From Lacibacter sediminis (GTDB lineage Bacteria; Bacteroidota; Bacteroidia; Chitinophagales; Chitinophagaceae): DNA of 64,000 nt. Positions 57,931 through 61,039 of the stretch are shown here, in pieces. Location of the stretch: positions 806,001 to 870,000 of the forward strand of contig NZ_CP060007.1 of assembly GCF_014168535.1 (NCBI RefSeq), in the 5' to 3' direction. The notes below the pieces were generated by a model that was given only the letters and a program-made list of their open reading frames with translations, searched no databases and was not told the origin of the DNA. The position numbers were made by a program, and so were the translations under genes. Numbering within the stretch: position 1 is the stretch's first letter; each line of letters starts with the position of its first letter.

Positions 57931-58674
57931 ATGCCACGTTACTTTCTGGAACTTAGTTATAAGGGAGAAGGGTACAGTGGTTTCCAGGTGCAGCAAAATG
58001 CCATCACCATTCAGGAAGAAGTGGAGAAAGCATTCCGGATCTTTTTCAAAAAAGATGTGGAACTGACCGGATCTTCCCGCACGGATGCGGGGGTGCATGC
58101 ACTACAGAACTATTTTCATTTCGATTGGGATGATGGGTTTCCTCAGGCTTCGGTTTATAATCTTAACGCTATTCTGCCTGCCGCAATAGTCATAAAGTCG
58201 GTAAAGGAAGTAAAGCCCGATGCGCACAGCCGCTTTCATGCAACAGCCCGGGAATACAAATACTTTATTTACGATAAAAAGAATCCCTTTATTGATGACA
58301 GAGCCTGGTACCTTCCTTACACCCTTGATGAGGCTTTATTAGATGCATGTGCCCAAAAGGTCAAGAACAACCTCGATTTTTCTGCTTTTTCGAAACGTAA
58401 TACGCAGGTAAAAACCTTTCAATGCAGTATTTCAGTAAGTGAATGGATAAGTGAAGACGGATGTCTTGTTTACCATGTACAGGCCAACCGGTTTTTGCGT
58501 GGAATGGTACGTGGCCTGGTTGGAACAATGGTTCGGGTAGCCAGGGGAACGATGTCGCTTGATGCTTTTGAAGCATTACTGGCACAAAGAACACTTGCTT
58601 CCGCAGATTTTTCGGCACCTGCAAAAGGCTTGTTTTTGGTAGGTGTAAGCTATCCGGAGGCTATCTTCCTGTAA
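57931..58674 (+). CDS. truA: tRNA pseudouridine(38-40) synthase
   Basis: This 247-aa enzyme isomerises uridines 38-40 of the tRNA anticodon stem-loop. The catalytic aspartate lies in GSSRTDAGVHAL (about residue 52). YKGEGYSGFQVQ at the start, FHATAREYKYFIY, FSKRN and RFLRGMVRGLVGTMVRVARG are all conserved. The length is typical. It is co-transcribed with the DUF4476 gene and ends before a strong hairpin ahead of the rRNA promoters. Confidence 0.96.
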   Translation: MPRYFLELSYKGEGYSGFQVQQNAITIQEEVEKAFRIFFKKDVELTGSSRTDAGVHALQNYFHFDWDDGFPQASVYNLNAILPAAIVIKSVKEVKPDAHSRFHATAREYKYFIYDKKNPFIDDRAWYLPYTLDEALLDACAQKVKNNLDFSAFSKRNTQVKTFQCSISVSEWISEDGCLVYHVQANRFLRGMVRGLVGTMVRVARGTMSLDAFEALLAQRTLASADFSAPAKGLFLVGVSYPEAIFL

Positions 58675-58694
58675 GCCCTAAAAAAACTTTTCGG

Positions 58695-58723
58695 CTGAAA
58701 TGCTTTGCAGCAAAGCGTTTCAG
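58695..58723 (+). terminator. Hairpin after truA
   Basis: A 13-bp stem (CTGAAATGCTTTG and its partner, one G-U pair) with a CAG loop is followed by GTTTTGG. It separates the truA unit from the rRNA promoter array. The T-run is short. Confidence 0.65.
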
Positions 58724-58752
58724 GTTTTGGCAGAAAAAAAGAACCAGAAAGG

Positions 58753-58785
58753 TTTGGTTTGTAACTCACTTCACCGTTACCTTTG
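58753..58785 (+). promoter_or_regulatory. rRNA promoter P1
   Basis: TTTG at 58753-58756 and TACCTTTG at 58778-58785 are spaced 21 bp. The transcript start is followed by a CCCG...CGGG hairpin with a GAAA loop (58789-58808) and AGTTCTTCAAAAGG. Confidence 0.7.
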
Positions 58786-58895
58786 CAGCCCGCTTTGAAA
58801 AAAACGGGTAGTTCTTCAAAAGGTGACGTTCTCTTCTTAACTATATCGGTTACAGCTTTTTACAAGAAAAAAGTTTGAAATAAAACGAAGAAAAA

Positions 58896-58926
58896 TTTGG
58901 CAGATAAAAATAGCCGCTTACCTTTG
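58896..58926 (+). promoter_or_regulatory. rRNA promoter P2
   Basis: TTTG at 58896-58899 and TACCTTTG at 58919-58926 are spaced exactly 19 bp. An A-rich stretch lies upstream. The hairpin CGCTTT-GAAA-AAAGCG (58932-58947) and AAGTTCTTCAAAAGG follow. Confidence 0.85.
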
Positions 58927-59044
58927 CAACCCGCTTTGAAAAAAGCGAAAGTTCTTCAAAAGGTTGGCACTGTAAGTCTGCACAAAAACAAATTCTTTCC
59001 CTGGTTTAAATCGATAAAAAAAGTTGAAATAAAACAAAGAAAAA

Positions 59045-59075
59045 TTTGGCAGATAAAAATAGCCGCTTACCTTTG
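59045..59075 (+). promoter_or_regulatory. rRNA promoter P3
   Basis: TTTG at 59045-59048 and TACCTTTG at 59068-59075 are spaced 19 bp, exactly 149 bp after P2 and nearly identical to it over about 70 bp. The hairpin CGCTTT-GAAA-AAAGCG is at 59081-59096. Confidence 0.85.
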
Positions 59076-59193
59076 CAACCCGCTTTGAAAAAAGCGAAAG
59101 TTCTTCAAAAAGGTTGGCAGTGAAAATTCACATCAAAGCAAGTTTTTCTTCGAATGAAAGCGACAAAAAAAGTTGAAAGAAAACAAAGAAAAA

Positions 59194-59224
59194 TTTGGTG
59201 AATTTAAAAAACCACTTACCTTTG
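59194..59224 (+). promoter_or_regulatory. rRNA promoter P4 (closest to 16S)
   Basis: TTTG at 59194-59197 and TACCTTTG at 59217-59224 are spaced 19 bp, exactly 149 bp after P3. The hairpin is CCGTTT/AAACGG (59229-59243), and the following word is AAGTTCTTTGAAAG. Confidence 0.85.
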
Positions 59225-59261
59225 CACTCCGTTTAAAAAACGGGGTCACGAAAACAAACAA

Positions 59262-59273
59262 AGTTCTTTGAAA
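59262..59273 (+). promoter_or_regulatory. boxA-like antitermination element in the 16S leader
   Basis: AGTTCTTTGAAA resembles the NusB/S10-binding boxA of rRNA operons. The same AAGTTCTTTGA word occurs before 23S at 61291. A palindromic stem TTAATTCT/AGAATTAA (59351-59368) lies between it and 16S. Confidence 0.6.
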
Positions 59274-59391
59274 GTTTGAAAGCAACAGCAACGTTTTAAT
59301 TAATTAGAACGGGTAAATTTTAAGCGTAAAATAATTCGATTTTTGAACTGTTAATTCTTGAGAATTAATAGTCAGTATCAAACAACATTTA

Positions 59392-60922
<1,531 letters not shown>

Positions 60923-61039
60923 TAGAGTACGTCTTTTTTTACTGCTGTTGCTTTTTTCTTTCAAGATTTTAAGTTCTTATAAAGTATTATTCGGCCAGTT
61001 GCTATGGATTTGTAGAGGCCACTTGGCTAAAGATTAGAT

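Follow-up and report, generated by a model that had tools for sequence, protein, structure and literature searches.

A tandem array of four putative rRNA promoters, each followed by a predicted hairpin and a boxA-like site, ahead of the only 16S rRNA gene match of Lacibacter sediminis

The output of rRNA limits bacterial growth, and the copy number of rRNA operons is its usual proxy. Bacteroides thetaiotaomicron is said, in work by Mastropaolo from 2009, to have two 16S rRNA promoters about 150 bp apart; we know of no report of amplification of Bacteroides 16S promoters, or of a boxA in each unit. Serial rRNA promoters are described in other bacteria: in the available excerpts of the papers concerned, mycobacterial rrnA has two promoters in M. 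tuberculosis and five in M. chelonae (PMC10218544), M. fortuitum has five rrn promoters (PMC2443159), and the rrn operons of E. coli have tandem P1-P2 promoters (PMC10250234, PMC5179076) and, behind P2 where the operon begins, a single boxB-boxA-boxC set (PMC10250234). A search of open-licence papers, in which absence carries little weight, found neither tandem rRNA promoter arrays in Chitinophagaceae nor a description of promoter, hairpin and boxA amplified as one unit with chimeric junctions.

Our study reports on a stretch of 64,000 nucleotides of the Lacibacter sediminis genome (the window), in which a promoter array faces the 16S rRNA gene. We consider it likely that the array comprises four housekeeping-sigma promoters, each with a hairpin and a boxA-type NusB/S10 site, and that it grew by unequal recombination from a pair. 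Should promoter number prove to be a second dial that changes faster, predictions of growth from operon counts would miss it.

The promoter units and their leaders

The array occupies the gap between truA and the 16S rRNA gene and is oriented towards the latter. The features of the locus are as follows.

57931..58674, plus strand: truA (TIGR00071, above cut-off), the upstream neighbour, outside the array
58753..58785, plus strand: P1 promoter; TTTG 58753-58756, 21-bp gap, TACCTTTG 58778-58785
58788..58821, plus strand: P1 leader; predicted hairpin 58788-58809, boxA-like GTTCTTCAAAA 58811-58821
58896..58926, plus strand: P2 promoter, putative chimeric unit; TTTG 58896-58899, 19 bp, TACCTTTG 58919-58926
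58932..58961, plus strand: P2 leader; predicted hairpin CGCTTT/AAAGCG 58932-58947, boxA-like GTTCTTCAAAA 58951-58961
59045..59075, plus strand: P3 promoter, putative chimeric unit; TTTG 59045-59048, 19 bp, TACCTTTG 59068-59075
59081..59110, plus strand: P3 leader; predicted hairpin 59081-59096, boxA-like GTTCTTCAAAA 59100-59110
59194..59224, plus strand: P4 promoter; TTTG 59194-59197, 19 bp, TACCTTTG 59217-59224
59226..59273, plus strand: P4 leader; predicted hairpin 59226-59246, boxA-like GTTCTTTGAAA 59263-59273
59279..59290, plus strand: leader strand AAAGCAACAGCA of the 16S leader-trailer helix, a 12-nt perfect complement of 60943-60954
59391..60921, plus strand: 16S rRNA gene, the only 16S match of the genome
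60943..60954, plus strand: trailer strand TGCTGTTGCTTT of the 16S leader-trailer helix
61293..61303, plus strand: boxA-like GTTCTTTGACA in the 16S-23S spacer, upstream of the 23S gene (61359)

The -7 boxes (TACCTTTG, four exact matches to TAnnTTTG) begin at 58778, 58919, 59068 and 59217, exactly where an earlier note on this DNA had placed them, and the TTTG -33 boxes begin at 58753 (21-bp gap to the -7 box) and at 58896, 59045 and 59194 (19-bp gap each). All four units have the -33 TTTG at the spacing of about 19-21 bp typical of Bacteroidota housekeeping-sigma promoters, and the reading of the array as tandem promoters of this type serving the rRNA operon, which the note had advanced, is supported by these four box pairs in series ahead of the 16S gene and on its strand; the gap of 21 bp in P1, instead of 19 bp, is a point against the four-promoter explanation. 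The distance from P1 to P2 is 141 bp, and those from P2 to P3 and from P3 to P4 are both 149 bp; the exact period claimed for the last three promoters, with TTTG at 19 bp, therefore stands, and it is the strongest array that Tandem Repeats Finder reports in the window (period 149, 2.5 copies, score 500). The description of the repeats as nearly identical holds for P2 and P3 (97% identity over a 95-nt reference) and fails for P4 (69% to the same reference), because P4 agrees upstream of the -7 box only and departs downstream of it. No plus-strand terminator-like site was found in 58600-59500, array interior included.

The 16S gene is the sole 16S match in a single-contig genome of 5,119,652 bp (5.12 Mb), and the comparison with other rrn operons of the same genome that the earlier note had proposed comes down to this one operon. 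The gene is followed by tRNA-Ile, tRNA-Ala and the 23S gene (from 61359). The leader strand of the predicted leader-trailer helix lies downstream of all four promoters. Further pairing of the upstream regions with the 16S trailer was considered and dropped; control stretches gave RNA duplex energies (-37.8, -40.9 and -43.7) similar to that of the candidate pairing (-40.9), and our claim is therefore restricted to the 12-nt perfect match. Behind truA, at 58693-58723 of the window, lies a strong inverted repeat, probably a terminator, to which another place in the genome matches at 94% over 31 nt.

Analysis of the letters downstream of each -7 box indicates that the repeating unit is larger than the promoter, taking in, besides the promoter, the boxA-like AGTTCTT and a short predicted hairpin where the RNA should begin. 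A hairpin is predicted in all four units of the window, at or near the expected RNA 5' end, with AGTTCTT behind it; the four transcripts are predicted to begin near 58790, 58931, 59080 and 59229, as judged from the placement of TAnnTTTG at -12 to -5 in Flavobacterium psychrophilum, given in an excerpt of PMC9723704. Across the family, a boxA-like motif ([AG]TTCTT or GATCTT, at most 80 nt away) accompanies 222 of 312 distinct units, compared with 8% of shuffles. It is present in 93 of 111 last units and 129 of 201 non-last units, with 72 of the latter lacking it by the rule used, and one boxA per promoter appears to be usual, not universal. For hairpins the signal is moderate, in that the first 32 nt can form a stem of 5 bp or more in 200/312 family units, against 36% of shuffles; among the last units of the genus the stems differ in sequence and keep their pairing, as in CCCATT/AATGGG and CCCGTT/AACGGG.

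Boxes of this kind stand between promoter and 16S gene (GTTCTTCAAAA three times and GTTCTTTGAAA) and again before the 23S gene (GTTCTTTGACA), and by eye these rRNA sites fit 10 of 11 positions of GYTCTTTAANA, a gamma-proteobacterial boxA consensus quoted in the available part of PMC5725501. A scan of the window's own genome for CTTTGC N13-43 AGTTCTT returned 24 matches, four of which are the rRNA units, compared with 11 for the reversed control pattern; seven of the other 20 were inspected, and four of these seven have a promoter-like core. Recurrence before the 23S gene, fit to the consensus and matches in the genome-wide scan are three signs that AGTTCTT is probably a Bacteroidota boxA.

The four sites with a promoter-like core and AGTTCTT precede a tRNA-Thr/Tyr/Gly/Thr-tuf cluster, an operon containing rplA, a tRNA-Leu adjoining a trigger-factor-like gene, and nusB; we take the tuf, rplA and trigger-factor-like genes to be such from their sequence. 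The identity of nusB is given by TIGR01951 and PF01029, and the gene was matched in 117 of 117 family genomes. In the window's own genome AGTTCTT sits a few bases ahead of the start codon of nusB (G000:C1:3745997-3746031). With a pattern broader than AGTTCTT alone, applied to 30 loci of which 29 could be oriented, a boxA-like motif was present no more than 40 nt upstream of the nusB coding sequence at 26/29 loci, against 42/725 windows further upstream and 10% of shuffles. This placement suggests a feedback on NusB in Bacteroidota. In gamma-proteobacteria, the excerpt of PMC5725501 describes no boxA directly upstream of nusB and only one upstream of ribH-nusB, in Pseudomonas. The boxA-like AGTTCTT taken from the arrays thus points to likely Nus-controlled genes, nusB among them.

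Promoter number among relatives

The genus set comprised 14 genomes, 11 of them with a 16S match, including the window's own (G000). Four units are present in G000 and G006, three in G010 and G013, and two in the other seven (G001, G004, G007, G008, G009, G011 and G012; for G001, with only 355 nt of upstream DNA, two is a lower bound). An identical copy number in all relatives together with no trace of duplication, which the earlier note had named as a finding that would speak against its reading, is not what the genus displays. A full-length TruA match was found in the upstream DNA of 11 of 12 genomes looked at (ten of the genus, G001 being left out, and G017), and a partial one in G016; of three operon loci tested in G009, one adjoins it. 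The genus therefore holds natural two-, three- and four-promoter versions at the same truA-16S site, which makes the idea of promoter number as a dial directly testable. The number of 16S operons also differs among close relatives, with four in G009 and one each in G000 and G006.

In the family, 200 of 392 genomes have a 16S match, and upstream DNA was read in 106 genomes (133 loci) that were hand-picked for a match reaching the 16S start and are not a random sample. With a unit defined as TAnnTTTG plus four of five letters of TTTGG at 18-22 bp, the 133 regions hold 2.59 units each on average, against 0.06 in first-order Markov copies, and none on the reverse strand. The maximum number of units per genome, tallied for 97 genomes with at least 650 nt upstream (11 shorter loci dropped), was 0 in one genome, 1 in three, 2 in 30, 3 in 44, 4 in 16, 5 in two and 9 in one; at least two units are thus found in 93/97 and at least three in 63/97. 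The nine of G120 become seven by eye, two matches being the -33 regions of the next unit, and both the mean and the tally keep the nine. These seven or so units fit into 900 nt and form the largest array found. The median spacing between neighbouring units in the family is 117 bp. In another family member, the 16S match is split in two pieces with a poorly matching middle (G162:C5:2957-4281).

Outside the family, 19 same-class loci were scanned under a looser -33 rule that was run without a control; five were dropped as too short, and 12 of the 14 that have 400 nt or more upstream hold two or more units. Under the same looser rule, none of eight loci from other parts of the phylum had two or more. 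Tandem rRNA promoters therefore look like a habit of the class, and their number appears to be what varies. A same-class genome of another family (L145) has five units, two of them near-identical at a 107-bp period, which looks like an independent duplication of units. Most of the 12 stretches in named genome records that contain an exact 22-nt unit pattern belong to Chitinophagaceae or Chitinophagales, one belongs to Bacteroidales and two to less specific records; the window's own genome was possibly excluded from these.

The single operon is suggestive of a role of the array in boosting or tuning rRNA synthesis, which the earlier note had held likely. The array might substitute for rRNA gene copies, one-operon species adding promoters and multi-operon species losing them. 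G000 and G006, with one 16S match and four promoters each, compare in this way with their close relative G009, which has four 16S matches and two promoters, and promoter number falls with operon number over 32 genomes (Spearman rho -0.36, P 0.04). However, nothing of the trend is left when 18 genus means are compared (rho 0.00), single-contig genomes give P 0.33, and total promoters per genome still increase with operon number. Draft assemblies may also collapse operons, and 12 of 44 genomes were excluded, two of them with a single match and 0 or 1 units; the reasons were a partial 16S match (G044, G103, G162, G286, G334), short upstream DNA (G080, G111, G323) or more than ten contigs (G016, G250, G316, G403), and in G246 one operon had been counted twice. 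An array that makes up for a single operon is plausible and weakly supported; as the trend is not robust we do not adopt compensation as the main reading, and judge the exchange of operons for promoters unlikely.

Origin and use of the array

A comparison of all six middle units of the four genus genomes with three or four units bears on how the array grew. In every one of the six, the upstream 60 nt have identities of 0.70-0.82 to the last unit (P_last) and 0.45-0.59 to the first (P_first), and the downstream 45 nt have identities of 0.71-0.81 to P_first and 0.53-0.56 to P_last. On this alignment the middle units are chimeras, with an apparent P_last-like upstream half and P_first-like downstream half. 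The tandem duplication proposed in the earlier note is thus supported as duplication; it was not simple copying of a promoter, the hairpin and boxA-like site being included and the middle units chimeric. In two-promoter relatives the promoters are 149 bp apart in G011 and G012, 151-152 bp in G007 and G008, and 126-130 bp in G001, G004 and G009. Chimeric middle units and a period of 149 bp equal to a two-promoter spacing fit unequal recombination between promoter cores. We propose that the array descends from two promoters, P_first and P_last, spaced by about 149 bp, and that the P_last core of one copy recombined with the P_first core of another at the near-identical -7 cores. The product would be a middle unit whose upstream half comes from P_last and whose downstream half comes from P_first; recombination at the cores would keep the 149-bp period, which would be the distance between the two original promoters.

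The four-unit array is common to G000 and G006, and the inter-unit spacers match by position across the two species. P2 and P3 both have GATAAAAATAGCC in G000 and both have GATTAAAATTGCC in G006; this is suggestive of local conversion, and the sites are too few for a claim of concerted evolution. By TruA, the two-unit G009 is the closest relative of the four-promoter pair G000 and G006, and the three-unit G010 groups with the two-unit G011 and G012; because of these placements promoter number has probably altered more than once, with branch support low and the direction of change not settled. Most forks in the 16S and TruA trees are poorly resolved, and an order of species based on them was not retained.

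In the pair G000 and G006 the motifs of all four units are conserved. For P1-P3, 157/159 columns that belong to a -33 box, -7 box, hairpin or boxA agree in the two genomes, compared with 218/245 for DNA outside the units (Fisher P 1e-4, one species pair; the outside DNA includes conserved leader, which makes the test conservative). This conservation argues for constraint, and therefore the extra promoters are probably used. Alternatively, P4, and perhaps P1, would be the only promoters that count, and P2 and P3 would be passive by-products of recombination between similar sequences that hardly affect rRNA output: copy number varies within the genus, two-promoter genomes manage without middle units, and recombination of the kind that formed them needs no selection. 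Such passivity seems improbable to us, given the greater conservation of the P1-P3 motifs and the frequency of arrays of two, three or more units in the family. Upstream promoters in tandem may nevertheless be partly occluded.

A further possibility, which we hold to be rather less than even, is that promoters of differing strength or sensitivity serve different growth conditions, as reported for mycobacterial rRNA promoters. Gap length, flanks and the first transcribed bases are not the same in P1, P2/P3 and P4, and the excerpt of PMC10218544 describes unequal use of M. kumamotonense promoters under stress; P2 and P3, however, are almost identical in core and leader, which speaks for dosage between those two.

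Our preferred model is that of four promoters in use. The RNA from each would open with a short hairpin, and a boxA-type NusB/S10 site would come next, so that RNA polymerase from any promoter could early on become resistant to termination and pass the downstream promoters and untranslated leader on its way into the 16S gene. By analogy with E. coli (PMC10250234), a boxA of its own for each promoter would shield polymerases from termination in the untranslated leader, including those that start as far as 600 nt upstream. We infer the use of all four promoters, the loading of Nus factors and a gain in rRNA output, as we do the recombination route. It is a long shot that, across Bacteroidia, rRNA promoter and boxA form a self-sufficient, recombination-prone module, gained or lost ahead of a fixed operon so that rRNA dosage changes instead of, or before, operon duplication, and that NusB, the reader of each module's boxA, is under feedback through a boxA over the start codon of nusB.

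Comparison with known rRNA promoter regions

The 16S promoter pair of Bacteroides has the same -33 TTTG and -7 TAnnTTTG boxes as the units described here; there are two promoters there and four here. The hypervariable multiple promoter region of mycobacterial rrnA, as far as the excerpt of PMC10218544 describes it, resembles the locus in its tandem promoters, few operons and species-variable promoter number, and promoter duplication has been invoked there too (PMC10218544). It differs in its sigma boxes, whereas the near-identical, fixed-period units here carry a predicted hairpin and boxA-like site and are chimeric in the middle. The E. coli rrn operons, in the available portion of PMC10250234, resemble this locus in their tandem promoters, in a second boxA before the 23S gene (boxA-like here) and in a leader-trailer helix, and their hairpin followed by boxA has a putative counterpart here; the leader set there follows P2 only, whereas here a predicted hairpin and boxA-like site follow each promoter. 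Arrangements of this kind are known, and the array is a variable form of them.
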